Positions 5,722-46,396 of a stretch of DNA of 64,000 bases are shown here, piece by piece. The DNA comes from an uncultured Alphaproteobacteria bacterium (GTDB lineage Bacteria; Pseudomonadota; Alphaproteobacteria; HIMB59; GCA-002718135): the NCBI GenBank assembly GCA_902620425.1, contig CACNHX010000003.1, forward strand, positions 133,199-197,198. Direction: 5' to 3'. The first letter of the stretch is position 1. Each line of letters starts with the position of its first letter. Position numbers and translations under genes: made by a program. The notes under the pieces were generated by a model. It saw only the letters and a program-made list of their open reading frames with translations, was not told the DNA's origin and did no database searches.

Positions 5722-6144
5722 ATGAAAAGTTTTTTTACTAAAATATTCTTTTTTGGCTTAACAGTCACATGGTCTTTAGGTCTTTTTGCACATGGAACTA
5801 TCATTTTTCCAAATGTAGAACATGGTGATGGCTACATTGATGTTAAGATATATGACTCAAAAGATAGCTTTTTGGATGAAGAATTAGCAATTGAGAGCGT
5901 TAGAAAAAGAGTGCAAAAGGGTGAGGTTGTAGTTCCTTTGAGTAAGATACATGAAGGAAAAATAGCAGTTGTTGCCTATCACGATGAAGATTCAGATGGA
6001 AAATTAAAGACTGGATTATTCTGGAGACCAAAAGAAGGTTTTGCCTTTAGTAATAATTATCAACCAAAAGGTCCTCCATCATTTGAAAAAGCCGCAATCG
6101 TTTTAGTTCATGGCGAACCCGTGGTAATAGAACTTAATTATTAA
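5722..6144 (+). CDS. DUF2141 family secreted protein
   Basis: A 140-residue protein with a clear Sec signal peptide: KSFFTK, then a hydrophobic stretch to about residue 20, with cleavage likely after LFA (LFA-HGT). The mature part has the DUF2141 hallmarks IAVVAYHDEDSDGKLKTGLF near residue 83, KEGFAFSNN near 108 and GPPSFEKAAI near 118. It is predicted periplasmic or secreted and has no known activity; the acidic DEDSDGK loop could bind a metal, which is speculation. It is the first gene of the rightward run and is followed 11 bases later by cysS. Confidence 0.85.
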   Translation: MKSFFTKIFFFGLTVTWSLGLFAHGTIIFPNVEHGDGYIDVKIYDSKDSFLDEELAIESVRKRVQKGEVVVPLSKIHEGKIAVVAYHDEDSDGKLKTGLFWRPKEGFAFSNNYQPKGPPSFEKAAIVLVHGEPVVIELNY

Positions 6145-6155
6145 AAATTATATTG

Positions 6156-7538
6156 ATGTCATTACAGTTACAAAACACATTAAGTGGTAAAAAAGAATTT
6201 TTTAAACCAGTTAATCCAGATCATGTAAGAATATATGCTTGCGGTCCAACTGTTTACAATTTTGCGCACATAGGTAATGCGCGTATGGCAGTTGTAAATG
6301 ATTTATTAGTCCGTGTATTAAAAACACAATTTAAACAAGTGACCTATGTATCTAATATCACTGATATTGATGACAAGATTATAGAAGCTTCTAAAGAAAC
6401 AGGCGACGACATTAGTGTTATCACAAATAAATATACAGAGATTTACAATAATGACATGAGTGCACTTGGCGTTAATCTTCCTGATATTCAACCAAGAGCA
6501 ACTGATCATATTAAAGAAATGATCGAGTTGATAAAAAAATTAATTGATGAAAATAAAGCTTATGAAAAAGAGGGTCATGTTTTATTTCATGTGCCAAGTT
6601 TTGATAATTATGGAATTCTTTCAAAAAGAAATAGAGACGAACAAATAGCTGGAAGCCGTGTTGAAGTAGCGCCGTTCAAAAAAGATCCGGCAGATTTTAT
6701 TTTATGGAAACCATCTCCCACACCCTTACCTGGTTGGGATTCACCTTGGGGATTTGGAAGACCAGGATGGCATTTAGAGTGCTCCGTTATGTCAGAAAAA
6801 TCATTAGGCCTTCCTTTTGATATTCATAGCGGTGGTATTGACTTGGTGTTTCCGCATCATGAAAATGAAATAGCACAAACTTGTTCCATATCTGAAAATA
6901 AAGATCCTAAAGATTTTGCAACTTATTGGTTTCATAATGGATTTGTTAATGTTGAGGGAGAAAAAATGTCAAAGTCAATTGGCAATATTAGACTCGTTCA
7001 TGATCTCAATAAAAAATATAAGGGAGAAGTTTTGCGATTAACATTGTTGTCAGCTCATTACAAACAGCCACTGAACTGGACAGAAGAAATCATTGAACAA
7101 AATAGCAAAATGATAGATCGACTTTATAGAGTGCTATTAGAGCTGTCAGAAGTTGAAATAGATTCTAACTTACCATCTGATTCTATAATGGAATCATTTT
7201 TAGATGATTTGAATACACCTAAAGTCATTGCAAAACTTAATGAAGAAGCAAATGATGCTTCATCTGCATCTGATGAAAGAAAAAAAGAAATCAAAAAAAA
7301 TCTTCTTTCTGCCGGTAAAATATTAGGTATTCTTGAAGATGATCCAGGAAATTGGTTAGGTTATAATCAAAAAGATACTGAAAACACTGAAGAAATTGAA
7401 AGGTTGATAAATGAACGTAATGAAGCTAGACGCAGTAAAAATTTTAATTTGGCAGATACTATTAGGGACACATTAAAAGATAAAGGGATAGAAATAGAAG
7501 ATACTGATAAAGGAACGATTTGGCGGAAATCTAGATGA
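6156..7538 (+). CDS. cysS: cysteinyl-tRNA synthetase
   Basis: Class I synthetase charging tRNA-Cys. Near residue 28 is [17 protein letters not shown], with the first zinc Cys and the HIGH-type motif; LECSVMS near residue 208 and [11 protein letters not shown] near 230 supply the other zinc ligands; KMSKSIGN near 270 is the KMSKS loop. About 460 residues, the usual length. I take the ATG at 6156 because the preceding TTG (6153) adds only one residue. It follows the DUF2141 gene closely, and its end overlaps thrS by four bases (ATGA), so the two synthetases are probably co-transcribed and translationally coupled. Confidence 0.97.
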
Positions 7539-40187: not shown

Positions 40188-41522
40188 ATGAGTATTTTTA
40201 AAAGCATCAAATTTGAATTACTTATTTTAGTATTAATTACATTAAGTATTTTTGTTTCTTTTAATTTAGATTTTTTATTTTATAGTTATTTTATAAACTT
40301 AAGTGAGTGGGTAAATGGAGTTTTTCTAAAAGAATTTTTTTCAGAAATAACAAAACTTGGTAGTTCGTCTTGGTATTTTTCTATTACAATAATAGGTTTT
40401 GTTATTTTTTATATAAACAACAAACTACAAATCATAAAAACTAAATCAGCAAAAAACCTTTCCTATTTTTTTATTTCTTCTTTTATTTATATTTTGACAG
40501 TTGGGATAATTACTCAAATTATAAAACATGTGGTAGGAAGGCCTAGACCAAATCATACTAATTTCGAAGACGTTTTTAGTTTTAAATATTTTACCATGGA
40601 GTCAAATTTTCATTCTTTTCCTTCTGGACACTCTTCTACCATATTTATCATTTGCTTTATTTTTGTTTCTGCTTTTCCAAAATTAAAATATTTTTTTTAT
40701 TTTTTAGCATCAATTGTTGCTTTTAGTCGAGTTGTTGTGAGCGCACACTTTTTTACAGATATTGTTGCTGGAGCAATTTTAGCTTTAATATTATTTAAGC
40801 TTTTAAATAAATTAATAGAAAATAAATATAATAAATACAAATTTTCAAATTTAATTCCTGAAAAACATTCTGAGATTTTTTATTATATTCTAATTTTGTT
40901 TTTTAGTTGTGTGTTTGTGACTGCCGGCCCATCCTTAGATTTATATGTATCATCTTTGTTTTATAGGGGTGAATCACAATTTGAATTACAAAGTTTTGAT
41001 TTAACTTCAATATTGTTTCGAGATATTTTATTACCACTAATACTTATTTATATTTTAATTTTACCAATAGTTGGGAGATTCTTTAAAATTGATAAAATTT
41101 TTTTTAATTATAAATTTTCTATTAAGGAAATAGTTTTATTGTGGATTTCTCAAATAATCAGTGTTTTAATTTTTGTTAATCTTATACTAAAAAATTTTTG
41201 GGGTAGGGCAAGACCAAACGATGTAGTTGAGTTGGGTGGAAAAGAATCTTTTTCCCCGTGGTTTGAAATAAGAAATGCTTGTGAAACAAATTGCTCCTTT
41301 GTTTCAGGCGATGCCTCTGTTGGCTTTTCCATTATAATTCTATATTTAATCACAAAAAATATAATTTTCCTCCATGCAAGCTTTGTTGCTGGTTTTGTAT
41401 TTGGCTTGATTAGAATAATGGCTGGCGGTCATTTTTTAAGTGACATTTTTTTTGCTGGCTTTTTTATTGTAATTTTAAATATATTTTTATTTGAATTGTA
41501 TAAAAAATATTATGTTAAATAA
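40188..41522 (+). CDS. tandem double PAP2-superfamily membrane phosphatase
   Basis: A 444-residue, very hydrophobic protein that carries the three PAP2 phosphatase motifs twice. First set: K113-HVVGRPRP-121, PSGH at 145-148, and R181-x5-H187-x3-D191 (SRVVVSAHFFTD). Second set: K335-NFWGRARP-343, VSGD at 372-375, and R409-x5-H415-x3-D419. So the second domain is intact except that the motif-2 His is Asp and Pro is Val. Each half has several membrane segments. PAP2 membrane enzymes remove phosphates from lipids such as undecaprenyl pyrophosphate, phosphatidate or lipid A. It overlaps the following glycosyltransferase gene by 11 bases, which suggests a role in lipid-linked sugar or LPS modification. 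The exact substrate is unknown. Confidence 0.85.
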   Translation: MSIFKSIKFELLILVLITLSIFVSFNLDFLFYSYFINLSEWVNGVFLKEFFSEITKLGSSSWYFSITIIGFVIFYINNKLQIIKTKSAKNLSYFFISSFIYILTVGIITQIIKHVVGRPRPNHTNFEDVFSFKYFTMESNFHSFPSGHSSTIFIICFIFVSAFPKLKYFFYFLASIVAFSRVVVSAHFFTDIVAGAILALILFKLLNKLIENKYNKYKFSNLIPEKHSEIFYYILILFFSCVFVTAGPSLDLYVSSLFYRGESQFELQSFDLTSILFRDILLPLILIYILILPIVGRFFKIDKIFFNYKFSIKEIVLLWISQIISVLIFVNLILKNFWGRARPNDVVELGGKESFSPWFEIRNACETNCSFVSGDASVGFSIIILYLITKNIIFLHASFVAGFVFGLIRIMAGGHFLSDIFFAGFFIVILNIFLFELYKKYYVK

Positions 41523-42897
41523 AATTCTATTGCCATCATTTATTTTTTTACTTTTATTAAAAATTGGTGCCTTAAATTTTACCACCTTTAATTTGTTTGG
41601 TGATGAAGCACAGTATTGGTTATGGTCAAAAGATATTGACTTTGGTTATTTTTCGAAACCCCCTTTTTTGTCCTGGATAATAAGAGTTTATACAGAAATA
41701 TTGGGCAGTAGTTTTGTTTCATTAAAACTTCTACCATCGTTTGTTTATTTGTTGATTTCCTGGAGTATTTATAATCTTTTAATTAACACTGGATTAAACA
41801 AAAAGGATTCATTCGCAGGTTGTTTAATTTTTTTATTTATACCCGCTGTTTCTTTTTCATCTTTTATAATTAGTACTGATCTTTTTTTATTATTATTTTG
41901 GACACTTTCACTTAATGAATTAGTTAAGATCAATGGTGAACATAGTTTAAAAAATTTTATATTATTAGGTATTTTTCTGGGGTTAGGTTTTTTATCAAAA
42001 TACGCAGCTATATATTTTGTGATTTGTTTATTTCTTTTAATTTCATTTGATAAAAGATTTAGAAAAATTTTTTTTGATAATTTATTTGGTTTTTGTCTTA
42101 CCTTTTTATGTGTATTTGTAATTATCGTGCCAAATATTATTTGGAACTTTAATAATGACTGGATAACACTTCAGCATACTTCGGATAATGCAAATTTTGG
42201 AAATATTGAAATAGATCTCATTAGGGGTTTAGAATTTTTGTTAATTCAAGTTTTAATGTTAGGCCCATTTATGGTTTTGGGTGGGATATTTGGATTTAAT
42301 AAATGGAACTATATTCAAAAAATTTTTCTAGTATTTTCTATGCCTATAATTTTAATTGTTTTAGTAGAAGCTATTATTGTCAGAGCTAATGCAAATTGGG
42401 CTGCTCCAGCTTTAATTTCTTTATTTGCTCTTTTATATATTAGAATTAATAATTCTTTTTTAAAGATAGCTAATTACATGTTTAATTTTATTGTCTGCTT
42501 AATTCTTTTTGTAATGATTGGAATGAGCTATCCGTCTAAAATTTTTGACCGAATAAGTGGTATAAATGATTATGCTCTAAAAATTTACAGTGGTTCTTCA
42601 GGTGGTGTTGTAAAAAATATAGTAGTTTCAGATCGGCTTTTGTTTTCAAGCTTTAGTTTTGAATTAAGAGATAAGGATATTAATTTATATATGCCGCATA
42701 AAGAAGGTAGTGAAATAACAAACCACTTTAAAATAGTATCCCCTCTTAATAAAAATATAAATGAAAACTTTACTTTAATTGGGAGCCCCTCAGATATTAA
42801 TTATTTAGAGAAAGAATATAAGGTGTTAAAAATAAATTCACCTGATCAGAAATTTACAAAAAGAAAACTTGATGTTTACGAGGTTGTGTTTGAATAA
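41512..42897 (+). CDS. GT39/ArnT-like membrane glycosyltransferase
   Basis: About 461 residues with roughly ten or more hydrophobic segments. Near the N-terminus, FGDEAQYWLWSKDIDFGYFSKPPFLSWIIR is the hallmark of the PMT/ArnT (GT39, GT-C fold) family: D-E-A after the first membrane helix and the Y-x-x-K-P-P loop. Such enzymes move a sugar from a polyprenyl-phosphate carrier to lipid A or another acceptor in the periplasm. A soluble C-terminal part follows the membrane domain. The ATG at 41512 is chosen over an upstream TTG; it overlaps the PAP2 gene, indicating co-translation. Confidence 0.88.
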   Translation: MLNKILLPSFIFLLLLKIGALNFTTFNLFGDEAQYWLWSKDIDFGYFSKPPFLSWIIRVYTEILGSSFVSLKLLPSFVYLLISWSIYNLLINTGLNKKDSFAGCLIFLFIPAVSFSSFIISTDLFLLLFWTLSLNELVKINGEHSLKNFILLGIFLGLGFLSKYAAIYFVICLFLLISFDKRFRKIFFDNLFGFCLTFLCVFVIIVPNIIWNFNNDWITLQHTSDNANFGNIEIDLIRGLEFLLIQVLMLGPFMVLGGIFGFNKWNYIQKIFLVFSMPIILIVLVEAIIVRANANWAAPALISLFALLYIRINNSFLKIANYMFNFIVCLILFVMIGMSYPSKIFDRISGINDYALKIYSGSSGGVVKNIVVSDRLLFSSFSFELRDKDINLYMPHKEGSEITNHFKIVSPLNKNINENFTLIGSPSDINYLEKEYKVLKINSPDQKFTKRKLDVYEVVFE

Positions 42898-43543
42898 ATT
42901 TCTAATAATTTTTATTATATTTGTAATTAATACATCCTATGCAAATAATTTTAGTGCAGAATATAAGGTCAGCACAACGGGAATTAAAATTGGTAATTTT
43001 AGTTGGTCATTAAATATTAATGATAATATTTATCAAACAGAAATTAATTTGAAAAATTCTGGTATTTTTTCACCTTTATATAAATTTGAAGGAAGCTATC
43101 TTTCAGCCGGGGTTATTGAAAACAACGTATTTAAGACTCAGAATTATAAACAGTTTTGGAAAACTAATAAGAAAACAAAAATAGTAAAAATGTCTTTTGA
43201 TGATTATTTAATTGAATTAAAACAAGAACCCATAGAAAAAGAAATAGCTAGGGTAGACCTAGAAGACTTATATTTATATTTTGACCCAATCACCTCTTTT
43301 ATAAATATTTTACATGGAAAAAAAGAGGTAAAAACAATTGATGGGAGAAGAATTTACACACTTAAACAAAACGAAAGTGAGGATGGAAATATAATTTTAG
43401 AAATTAAAGACTATGTAAATATTTGGGCTGACCATAAAAGAAATGATTTAAAAAAAATTGAATTTTTAGTTAAAGATGATTTACTTCCATATGAAATTCT
43501 TATTCATTTCAAAAAAAGGGTATTTAAGTTAGAAAGAATTTAA
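42890..43543 (+). CDS. DUF3108 family exported protein
   Basis: About 218 residues. A signal peptide, NKFLIIFIIFVINTSYA, precedes a beta-rich mature part beginning NNFSAEYKVSTTGIKIGNFSWSL, the typical opening of DUF3108. YFDPITSFINILHG and KIEFLVKDDLLPYEILIHF are further matches in style to the family. Predicted periplasmic, function unknown. The start is uncertain: TTG at 42890 has a GAGG site eight bases upstream and gives a proper signal peptide; ATG at 42872 and TTG at 42869 would add basic residues in front. It overlaps the glycosyltransferase gene, so it belongs to the same operon, and its end overlaps the smr gene by four bases. Confidence 0.75.
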   Translation: MNKFLIIFIIFVINTSYANNFSAEYKVSTTGIKIGNFSWSLNINDNIYQTEINLKNSGIFSPLYKFEGSYLSAGVIENNVFKTQNYKQFWKTNKKTKIVKMSFDDYLIELKQEPIEKEIARVDLEDLYLYFDPITSFINILHGKKEVKTIDGRRIYTLKQNESEDGNIILEIKDYVNIWADHKRNDLKKIEFLVKDDLLPYEILIHFKKRVFKLERI

Positions 43544-44079
43544 AACTTTTTTTTTCTTAAATAAACAAAAAGAGCTCCGTCACCCCCATTTTCAAAACCC
43601 GCATCTTGATATGTTAAGATATATTTCTTGATATCATCTTCGTTTATCCAGTTTATTATTGAGTTTTTAATCTTTCCATAGAAAAGTTTAGGGTTTGTGT
43701 CCAGCTCATTTTCAATTTTTTTATGAACACCTTTTCCAGTAATTATTAGCAAACATCTTTTATTCTTGTTATAATTTTTTTTAACCTCACTTATAAATTT
43801 TTCATGTGCTTCGACTAAACCGTAACCGTGAAGATCAATTCTTCTATCTATATTAATTTTCCCCCGCTTAAGCTCCTTGTTAACCTCGCCAAATGATAGT
43901 TTAAATTCTGAGCTACTAACTTTTTGTGCGGTTATTGTTTTTTTGCTGGTATTTAAAGTATTAGTTTTTTTATCTAATTTTACAATTTTTTTATTAGTTG
44001 TTTTTGCCTTAACTATGGATGTATCTTTTTTAAAAGGTTTTACTCCCTTCATGTTTTTTAGAAAAAAATCTTCTTCCAT
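43540..44079 (-). CDS. Smr domain protein
   Basis: A 179-residue protein. The N-terminal half (about 1-85) is Lys/Thr-rich and probably unstructured; the C-terminal Smr (small MutS-related) domain has RRIDLHGYGLVEAHEKFISEV near residue 80 and the CLLIITGKGVHKK loop near 108, then AFQDAGF-like AGFENGGDGALFVYLR at the end. Smr domains are nucleases acting on nucleic acids or ribosome-linked mRNA. In many Alphaproteobacteria an Smr gene follows tim44 and mltA near the origin; here it follows the lysozyme gene, sharing one base with it. Confidence 0.9.
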   Translation of the reverse strand: MEEDFFLKNMKGVKPFKKDTSIVKAKTTNKKIVKLDKKTNTLNTSKKTITAQKVSSSEFKLSFGEVNKELKRGKINIDRRIDLHGYGLVEAHEKFISEVKKNYNKNKRCLLIITGKGVHKKIENELDTNPKLFYGKIKNSIINWINEDDIKKYILTYQDAGFENGGDGALFVYLRKKKF

Positions 44080-44507
44080 TATTTTTTTGTATAGTTTTTA
44101 ATTAAATTCTTTACTCTTTCAGGTGTTTGCAAATACCATAGACTGTCTAACATCTCTAGTGATGCCATGAATTTTTGTTTTTTGTTTAGAAAATAAAGCA
44201 TTTTCTTAAATTTAGAGACGCCTTTTGCCCCAAGTTGGAAAAGCATTTCTATTAATAATTCTTTATCAGAAGTTGTATGACCTTTTTTAAAAAAATTTTT
44301 TTTGTATTGTTCGTGTGCTTTTTTAAAGTCTATCTCAAACAATTTTTCAAAATATTTTTTTTTAAATTTTTTAATGTAATATTTATTTTCTTTTTCTGTA
44401 ATAAGATGACCATAGCCAATAGTATAAAAACCTAATTGATCTTGATAAGGCTTATCAGAATAACCCTCATTTTTTTTAATTCGGTTTTTGAGTTCTTTAA
44501 GGGACAA
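44079..44507 (-). CDS. T4-type (GH24) lysozyme
   Basis: A 142-residue muramidase with the phage T4 lysozyme pattern. RIKKNEGYSDKPYQDQLGFY, then TIGYGHLIT, puts Glu14, Asp23 and Thr29 at exactly the same spacing as Glu11, Asp20 and Thr26 of T4 lysozyme. The C-terminal lobe also matches: LFQLGAKGVSKFKKML and WYLQTPERVKNLI correspond to the FQMG-x-x-GV-x-x-F and WYNQTPNRAK segments. There is no signal peptide or membrane segment. It lies between the Tim44-like and Smr genes, overlapping smr by one base, with the same AT-rich composition as its neighbours and no other phage gene nearby. This is the slot of mltA in related bacteria. Confidence 0.88.
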   Translation of the reverse strand: MSLKELKNRIKKNEGYSDKPYQDQLGFYTIGYGHLITEKENKYYIKKFKKKYFEKLFEIDFKKAHEQYKKNFFKKGHTTSDKELLIEMLFQLGAKGVSKFKKMLYFLNKKQKFMASLEMLDSLWYLQTPERVKNLIKNYTKK

Positions 44508-44510
44508 ATA

Positions 44511-45092
44511 TTAAGTTTGAGTTAATATCCATATAGGACTAGAGGAGTTTACCGGTTTTTCAAAAGTCCAGGTGTCTTTATTTTTAACAATAGAACCCTC
44601 ATCATTATTTAACATCTGTTCACTAATAAAATTGACTGATATTGATATCGTATTATTTTCTACTTTCGCATCTGCGATACCCTCTACAATAAGTGAATAA
44701 AATTGTGATTCTGGATTGTTTGTTTTTTCATCAATTGCTTTTTCAAAAGCAGAATAAACATCTTTAGACACAAGGTTTTTTAATGTTTTTTTATCTCCGT
44801 TGTTGAAAGATGAAATTATAATTTCAAAAGCTTTCTTGGCACCATCAAGAAACTCTCTGTGGTTAAAATTATTTACTTTTTTATATACGGCCTCAAGCTT
44901 TGTCTCATTATCCATTAGTGATGGTATTTTTTGAACATCTTCTTGTTTTTTGGTTTCTTGAGGTTTTGGCTCTGAAATATTTTTTTGAAACCCTGTTCTT
45001 TTCCCTAAAACACTCCTAAGTCTATAAATAATAAATCCAGCAATAGCTGCAAAAATTAGAATATCAAAAAATTGAAGGTCGCCGTAAATCAT
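44511..45092 (-). CDS. Tim44-like domain protein
   Basis: A 193-residue protein with an N-terminal membrane segment (FFDILIFAAIAGFIIYRL, about residues 8-25), a short polar linker (KRTGFQKNISEPKPQETKK), and a C-terminal Tim44-like domain with FNHREFLDGAKKAFEIIISSFNNGDKKTLKNLVSKDVYSAFEKAI. Bacterial proteins of this type are inner-membrane anchored and face the periplasm or cytoplasm; in Alphaproteobacteria they lie next to mltA and secB near the origin. Here the neighbours are the lysozyme and dnaQ, and secB is absent. ATG at 45092, 30 bases after dnaQ. Confidence 0.88.
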   Translation of the reverse strand: MIYGDLQFFDILIFAAIAGFIIYRLRSVLGKRTGFQKNISEPKPQETKKQEDVQKIPSLMDNETKLEAVYKKVNNFNHREFLDGAKKAFEIIISSFNNGDKKTLKNLVSKDVYSAFEKAIDEKTNNPESQFYSLIVEGIADAKVENNTISISVNFISEQMLNNDEGSIVKNKDTWTFEKPVNSSSPIWILTQT

Positions 45093-45122: not shown

Positions 45123-45797
45123 TTAATAGTTAAATTTTTTCCAAAGGGGGTTTTTTAGTTTTTTTAACATTTCTTTATGGGCAAGATAATCTTCTTTATT
45201 AACTTCTATTATTTTGGTTTTTGTTTCGTTTTTATTGTTAATTTGTGAGTTTTTTTCGTCAATGTTTGAATCCAGCTCCATAGAAAATTGCTTACCTCCT
45301 CTTAACTCTAAATAAACTGCGGCTAGAAGTTGGGAATCAAGTAAAGCTCCGTGAAATGATCTATCTGATAAATCAATGTTAAATCTTCTACACAAATAGT
45401 CGAGGTTAGCTATTCTTGTATTTAGAACTTCTCTTGCAAGAGAAACTGTATCAACTACAGGATTATCTAAATGAGGTAATCCTAAGATTGACAACTCATT
45501 ATTTATAAAACCTAAATCAAATGATGCATTGTGAATTATCAATGTGTCGTTTTTCAAAAAATTTAAGAGCTCCTTATGGTTTTCTTCAAATGGTTTTTGT
45601 TGATTAAGAAAATCATCTGAAAGACCCACGATTTTTTTTGCCCCTTCGCTTATACTTCTGTCTGGTTTGCAATAAAATTGGAGTGTGTTTCCTGTAGGAA
45701 CATAGTTTTTAAGTTCCACACAACCAACTTCTATTATTCTGTCACCGGTCTTATAATCAAGGCCTGTGGTTTCTGTATCAATTACTATTTCTCTCAT
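45123..45797 (-). CDS. dnaQ: DNA polymerase III epsilon subunit
   Basis: Proofreading 3'-5' exonuclease of the replicase. In the 224-residue protein, IVIDTETTGLDYKTGDRIIEVGCVE (Exo I) opens the chain; IHNASFDLGFINNELSILG near residue 90 is Exo II; and RSFHGALLDSQLLAAVYLEL near 147 is Exo III, with the catalytic Asp and Glu residues and the conserved His. The C-terminal tail (about 185-224) is the part that normally binds the alpha subunit. It is part of the leftward run dnaQ-coaE-aroE-maf in the usual alphaproteobacterial order. Confidence 0.96.
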   Translation of the reverse strand: MREIVIDTETTGLDYKTGDRIIEVGCVELKNYVPTGNTLQFYCKPDRSISEGAKKIVGLSDDFLNQQKPFEENHKELLNFLKNDTLIIHNASFDLGFINNELSILGLPHLDNPVVDTVSLAREVLNTRIANLDYLCRRFNIDLSDRSFHGALLDSQLLAAVYLELRGGKQFSMELDSNIDEKNSQINNKNETKTKIIEVNKEDYLAHKEMLKKLKNPLWKKFNY

Positions 45798-45805
45798 TAT
45801 TTTAA

Positions 45806-46396
45806 CTAAAGTTTACTTATTAGCTTATTAATCTTAATTTTATAATCCTTTAATGTCGAGTTGTTATAAATAACATAATCTGATTTCTTTTTTCTTATAA
45901 TATCTGATGTTTGAGATCGAGTTATATTTTTAAATTGTTTTTCGGTCATTTTTCTTGTTTTTTTTAATCTTTTTAATCTTACTCGTTTGGAGGCTATTAC
46001 CGATATTACTTTATTGAACTGTTTCTCTAAATTGTTTTCAAACAACAATGGTATATCAATAAAAATTAATTTTGTTTTTTTTTGTTTTTCTTTTTTTATA
46101 AAATCAGACCTCTTTTTTCTAACTATTTTAAATATGTATAACTCAAGCTTTTTTCTTATTTGTTTATTTTCAAAAATAATCTTTGATATAATTTTTTTAT
46201 CTATGTTTTTTTTTGAAATGGACTTGGACAAACCTATGGTACGCAAATAAGTAACAAATTTTTTCTCAGGGTTTTTATATATTTTGGCCACCTGCTCATC
46301 TGAGCTGTGAATTTTAAAACCTTTTTCTTTTAATTTACTACAAAAGGTGGATTTACCCGATCCTATGCCGCCTGTTATTGCTATAGTTTTTGTCAT
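45806..46396 (-). CDS. coaE: dephospho-CoA kinase
   Basis: Last step of coenzyme A synthesis. The 196-residue protein has the P-loop AITGGIGSGKSTFCSKL near residue 6, the lid/core region with IFIDIPLLFENN near 111, and ARxRL-like SKRVRLKRLKKTR near 133. Very Lys-rich, as its neighbours. The ATG overlaps the stop of aroE by one base. Confidence 0.94.
   Translation of the reverse strand: MTKTIAITGGIGSGKSTFCSKLKEKGFKIHSSDEQVAKIYKNPEKKFVTYLRTIGLSKSISKKNIDKKIISKIIFENKQIRKKLELYIFKIVRKKRSDFIKKEKQKKTKLIFIDIPLLFENNLEKQFNKVISVIASKRVRLKRLKKTRKMTEKQFKNITRSQTSDIIRKKKSDYVIYNNSTLKDYKIKINKLISKL

Follow-up and report, generated by a model that had tools for sequence, protein, structure and literature searches.

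An old, family-wide phage-type lysozyme gene behind Tim44 in marine Alphaproteobacteria of the order HIMB59

Phage T4 lysozyme (the gene e product; PF00959, GH24) is about 31% identical to the cellular lysozyme that we describe here, which is 22 residues shorter than the 164-residue T4 chain and which, unlike its T4 counterpart, is encoded by a chromosomal core gene that has no lysis partner gene and starts with TTG behind Tim44. The closest cultured relatives are the lysozymes of the pelagiphages HTVC119P, EXVC032P (Baldr) and HTVC111P, which group with the cellular clade; pelagiphage-type lysozymes are phage lysis genes with acidic products (pI 4.6 to 6.5 in nine rows), whereas the cellular ones are basic. 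A likeness within the class is the muramidase domain of SpmX (Caulobacterales), also a phage-type lysozyme that became an alphaproteobacterial core gene and also devoid of a signal peptide. As described in PMC5347347, SpmX carries a proline-rich linker and two C-terminal transmembrane (TM) segments, it binds cytoplasmic partners and oligomerises, and no activity was detected. The cellular lysozyme, by contrast, is a lone domain with a full triad in another genomic place; its 142 residues contain no C-terminal linker with two TM segments, and it scores 13.9 bits with the NCBIfam LysLocSpmX equivalog, for which the cut-off is 700. MltA, which belongs to a different Pfam family (PF03562 versus PF00959), cuts the same glycosidic bond as lysozyme, is exported and yields anhydro products. 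Co-option of phage lysins is already known; what is new here is that the active site is kept. The literature searched contained no description of this chromosomal lysozyme, and the main texts of PMC10308909 and PMC10734472 make no mention of lysozyme.

In the window, by which we mean the whole stretch of 64,000 nucleotides that was analysed, the gene lies between a Tim44-like gene and smr, as a first-pass annotation of the DNA had stated:

44079..44507, minus strand: lysozyme gene, T4-fold (GH24-type), 142 aa, a domesticated phage lysozyme
44505..44507, minus strand: TTG start codon of the lysozyme, 3 nt behind the Tim44 stop
44511..45092, minus strand: Tim44-like gene (PF04280) with one N-terminal hydrophobic segment, directly upstream of the lysozyme
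43540..44079, minus strand: smr gene (PF01713), its ATG sharing one base, the final one of the stop codon, with the lysozyme gene
45123..46396, minus strand: dnaQ-like gene (RNase_T match) and a gene that we take, from its sequence, to be coaE-like, upstream on the same strand
40188..43543, plus strand: PAP2, PMT_2 glycosyltransferase and DUF3108 genes, a convergent neighbour block

The 142-residue product matches PF00959 at 35.7 bits (curated cut-off, 22.3) and no other Pfam domain, PF03562 (MltA) included, and it has the two-lobe T4 lysozyme fold, in keeping with the C-terminal match seen in the first pass. The T4 triad proposed there is likewise confirmed: the pattern Glu-8aa-Asp/Cys-5aa-Thr falls on E14, D23 and T29, encoded as follows.

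44466..44468, minus strand: codon of catalytic Glu14 (T4 E11), kept in 111/111 cellular loci
44439..44441, minus strand: codon of catalytic Asp23 (T4 D20), kept in 111/111 cellular loci
44421..44423, minus strand: codon of catalytic Thr29 (T4 T26), kept in 111/111 cellular loci

The cleft residues H34, Q91, W124, Q127 and R131 are invariant in all 28 diverged cellular rows. Estimates of dN/dS, which are rough for so short a gene (Nei-Gojobori), run from 0.04 to 0.21 in 10 pairs, in the range of smr (0.085 to 0.16) and above Tim44 in 9 of the 10. Judging from the intact triad and cleft, the gene would very probably still encode a catalytically competent, active muramidase. The cellular lysozymes have a pI of 9.4 to 10.3; we considered this positive charge as a sign of wall binding and dropped the idea, given that the coaE and aroE products are equally basic and that the charge may only reflect an A-rich genome.

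The window belongs to assembly GCA_902620425.1 (G000; 1,540,741 bases in 19 contigs, 90.77% complete). According to PMC10734472, the order HIMB59 (AEGEAN-169 marine group) comprises two GTDB families, HIMB59, with a mean estimated genome size of 1.47 Mb and both pure cultures of the order, and GCA-002718135, with a mean of 1.70 Mb; we infer that the latter is the lysozyme-bearing family and the former its sister. A family profile search found the lysozyme in 85 of 162 genomes of the order, all of them in the GCA-002718135 family and spread over 6/6 of its genera, with no match in any sister-family genome of this sample. Tim44 was found by a Tim44 family search in 84 of 110 lysozyme-family genomes, including all 10 that are at least 90% complete, and in each of the 84 the two genes adjoin within 30 bp on the same strand. 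The two genome lists agree except for G120, in which the sole lysozyme match, at a weaker E of 1.2e-28, sits on a phage contig. The 26 family genomes without Tim44 also have no lysozyme at the locus, the plain reading being that the locus is missing; the 20 of them that are listed are 53 to 85% complete. In G142 the lysozyme frame ends at 140 residues, and the match runs over one stop at its end.

The order coaE-dnaQ-tim44-lys-smr, with DUF3108 convergent behind, recurs in 111/111 loci (31, the window's own included, plus 80, with some species represented in both sets). No phage gene stands beside the lysozyme in the window, as already noted in the first pass, or in any of the 111 loci, and the gene does not have the setting of a phage endolysin, which belongs to a phage or prophage and has holin or other lysis genes for neighbours. 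Restriction to a single assembly, a flanking prophage and an assembly join are excluded, and the lysozyme of this family is real, old and family-wide. The closest records with the gene are uncultured Alphaproteobacteria isolates with AG- names, presumably single-cell genomes, and Pelagibacteraceae AG-337-I02, many titles saying MAG; more distant ones include Pelagibacterales SAG-MED31 and MarineAlpha5 bins. In the sister family, Tim44 and smr overlap each other in five of five loci, and no third gene separates them. The PAP2 phosphatase/PMT_2-type/DUF3108 block, which separates smr from hslU in the lysozyme family, is missing from that place in five sister-family loci. Across the class, some lysozyme match occurs in 43 of 386 genomes; 40 of these genomes lie outside the family, with E values no better than 1.4e-15. 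A lysozyme in the same slot elsewhere in the class was sought and rejected: in the 27 outside-family loci examined (L268-L294, drawn from part of the class matches), profiles of this order picked out neither Tim44 nor smr within about 1.5 kb.

Where did the gene come from? A maximum-likelihood tree was built on 146 columns from 90 rows, to which an initial 231 had been reduced; it is midpoint rooted, and its bootstrap had not settled. In it, the 28 cellular rows form one clade with 100/100 support, and this clade groups at 96/92 with 18 phage rows, whose own support is 88/86 and which are Pelagibacter podophages, marine viral contigs and the G120 phage. Further out stand other viral contigs, the T4-like phage CC31, Alteromonas phage P24 and phage-type lysozymes of other Alphaproteobacteria. 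The lysozymes of the three cultured Pelagibacter phages named above are 41 to 44% identical over 92 to 94% of the protein, the best IMG/VR matches are about 45% identical, and the cellular lysozymes themselves diverge to about 44 to 50% protein identity. Cys takes the place of the catalytic Asp20 of T4 in 10 of the 18 phage rows (L298, L300, L123 and L142 among them), whereas the cellular lysozymes keep Asp. Because phages surround the cellular clade, we infer a direction from phage to host, and a phage endolysin was almost certainly captured and fixed in the family. The first-pass annotation had proposed an old capture from a T4-like phage; the old capture stands, and the source is instead a pelagiphage-type podophage lineage.

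Based on the single clade and the unbroken synteny, we propose that the endolysin of a pelagiphage-like podophage was captured long ago, as far as the tree goes, either in the ancestor of one family of the order or in that of the whole order, the sister family then having lost it, that it was placed exactly between Tim44 and smr, and that it would have been inherited there since. With two families of the order sampled, loss in the sister family may have occurred instead of gain in the lysozyme family. Horizontal spread within the family was also considered and is not supported, the cellular clade being single; on the 146 columns, many of its inner forks lack resolution.

A phage contig (L306; G120 contig C11, 17000-27967) is present inside an assembly of the same genus as the window. 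It encodes a portal (phrog_1216), a major head protein (phrog_371), a GroES-like co-chaperonin (phrog_3188) and its own lysozyme, which groups with the pelagiphages, and this phage may be a virus of the lysozyme-bearing lineage. Directly before the phage lysozyme, at 6122-6511 on the minus strand of L306, lies a 129-residue protein that belongs to phrog_2524, a family with no assigned function; its C-terminal half appears hydrophobic by eye, and it looks like a holin candidate.

TTG stands at the aligned start in 105 of 111 loci and one codon upstream in four more (L104, L105, L107, L120), leaving two (L006, L103) with TTG at neither place; none of the 111 has ATG there. TTG was also seen in six loci of other genera and one of G142, some of these genomes overlapping with the 80-locus set. 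When the nearest start codon within six codons was counted for the neighbours in the same loci, ATG opened tim44 in 106/111, smr in 110/111, dnaQ in 105/111, aroE in 78/80 and coaE in 79/111 (no start codon was found for coaE in 31). The lysozyme start follows the Tim44 stop in frame in 88 of the 111 loci (by 3 nt in 83, 6 in 2 and 9 in 3) and out of frame in the other 23 (by 4 nt in 19, 2 in 2 and 5 in 2). A read-through Tim44-lysozyme fusion was rejected on account of these 23 loci and of two stops in a row in L009 and L028. A hidden upstream start with a signal sequence was rejected by eye: followed upstream, the lysozyme frame meets a stop codon at that of Tim44, or a little behind it, in most of 31 loci, and where the frame stays open further upstream the encoded peptide is not hydrophobic. 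Given that TTG is one base from ATG and has been kept despite divergence to such low identities, its conservation suggests selection for weak or coupled initiation, and we posit that the muramidase is made at a low level by a weak TTG right behind the Tim44 stop.

Can such a protein reach the wall? As the first pass had it, and as hydropathy and the window neighbours bear out, there is neither a signal peptide nor an adjoining holin. No TM segment is present either (the highest KD19 in this protein is 0.5), nor is there the N-terminal signal-anchor of SAR endolysins, the highest KD19 within the first 40 residues of the 28 cellular rows being 0.59. A search of 110 family genomes for one holin-like family, phrog_2524, found it in one, only on the G120 phage contig. 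Thus, no route to the periplasm is visible, and with no signal peptide and no adjoining holin the muramidase is expected to remain cytoplasmic in the manner of phage endolysins.

The first-pass annotation had further placed the lysozyme in the usual position of mltA and suggested that it had perhaps replaced a peptidoglycan-trimming enzyme. MltA (PF03562) occurs in 220 of 289 class genomes, and in 29 of the 30 best-scoring class loci it stands just behind Tim44 on the same strand, as the lysozyme does in its family, so that the first pass was right about the Tim44-mltA pairing for this sample; on the other side, smr was seen behind mltA in only 4 of the 30, and ten further frames downstream of mltA matched CCG (5), LysE (1), PIN (1) or no Pfam family (3). 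No MltA was found in any of 101 genomes of the two families (G000 and 100 relatives), and mltA was probably lost from the order HIMB59 or its ancestor. The slot behind Tim44 is filled by the lysozyme in the GCA-002718135 family and empty in the sister family. SLT matches occur in 96 of the 101 genomes (two in G000, one a 582-residue Slt70-like frame), MltB-type PF13406 in 11 of 12 genomes tested, G000 included, and MltG PF02618 in 6 of 8 lysozyme-family genomes tested; MltG was not found in G000 or in the 4 sister-family genomes tested. The remaining transglycosylases of G000, of MltB type and Slt70 type, lie at C4:75497-76423 and C1:304900-305232. The absence of mltA agrees with the proposed replacement, but a one-for-one replacement is only possible, because the sister family, also without mltA, has an empty slot and because other transglycosylases remain.

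In total, we consider the whole best explained, with a probability of roughly 0.5, by an ancient capture that left an active, dosage-limited muramidase acting on the cell's own wall. This reading is favoured because the catalytic and cleft residues are invariant. In this model, the most likely substrate that the lysozyme hydrolyses is glycan strands in the peptidoglycan of its own cell, and it would take over or supplement the trimming done by MltA in relatives; for this, a little of the enzyme would have to reach the periplasm by a leaderless route or on membrane stress. That own-wall trimming is its main role we regard as not quite an even bet. The sister family lives without MltA and lysozyme, so that the function is not essential to the order, and with Slt70-type and MltB-type enzymes and, in most lysozyme-family genomes tested, MltG still in place, trimming is not obviously missing.

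Could the domain instead act as SpmX does in Caulobacter, as a cytoplasmic scaffold that binds proteins or oligomerises and whose enzymatic activity is no longer used? The missing export signal is what such a scaffold would lead one to expect, and PMC5347347 supplies the same-class precedent, SpmX, which has a lysozyme domain and lacks Sec/Tat motifs. The invariance of triad and cleft, the absence of any other Pfam domain and the low score against the SpmX model speak against it, and we think it unlikely; residue conservation alone does not settle the matter, because SpmX also keeps the Glu, as reported in PMC5347347.

We are more doubtful of a combined proposal in which an active phage endolysin, kept in the cytoplasm as a core gene of a whole family of free-living marine bacteria and tamed mainly by its TTG, serves either as a built-in lysis charge on membrane breach (by a phage holin or depolarisation) or, by leaderless export, in wall turnover. 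In a stricter form, the charge would act only when the inner membrane is breached by a phage holin, depolarisation or cell death, and would lyse doomed cells quickly, for phage defence or recycling. The endolysin architecture without an export signal, the kept triad and a conserved weak start that would keep the dose harmless all suit this idea, and the lineage seems to meet phages with such lysozymes, as on the G120 phage contig; a related marine viral contig from IMG/VR (L126) has a holin (phrog_3427) directly after its lysozyme. Infecting phages, however, already carry an endolysin, the present gene, in contrast to a typical defence gene, belongs to the core genome and lies in a housekeeping run, and PADLOC anti-phage models matched 0 families for the lysozyme and its five neighbours, which also led us to reject it as a known defence gene. 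We judge the strict form improbable.

A housekeeping role in the cytoplasm, with imported or recycled muropeptide chains or some other beta-1,4 glycan as the substrate to be cleaved, would account for both a cytoplasmic location and an intact active site. T4-type lysozymes, however, prefer polymeric, peptide-bearing glycan, and no recycling gene was recognised among the named neighbours, which makes this reading very unlikely. A recent prophage remnant, contamination or an assembly artefact, which a phage-type gene of slightly low GC (24.7% versus 28-30% in the neighbours) might have suggested, is already refuted by the same placement in separate assemblies across the family and by the lack of adjoining phage genes, and its probability is negligible.

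Alongside SpmX, this gene would stand as a further clear example of a phage lysin turned into an alphaproteobacterial core gene, here with its active site intact. The taming of the lysozyme appears to rest on dose and location rather than on a loss of catalysis. The gene offers a way to test directly by what means (start codon, coupling, location) an enzyme that could kill the cell is rendered harmless, and also whether a lasting link exists between a Tim44-like protein and enzymes that cut the wall.
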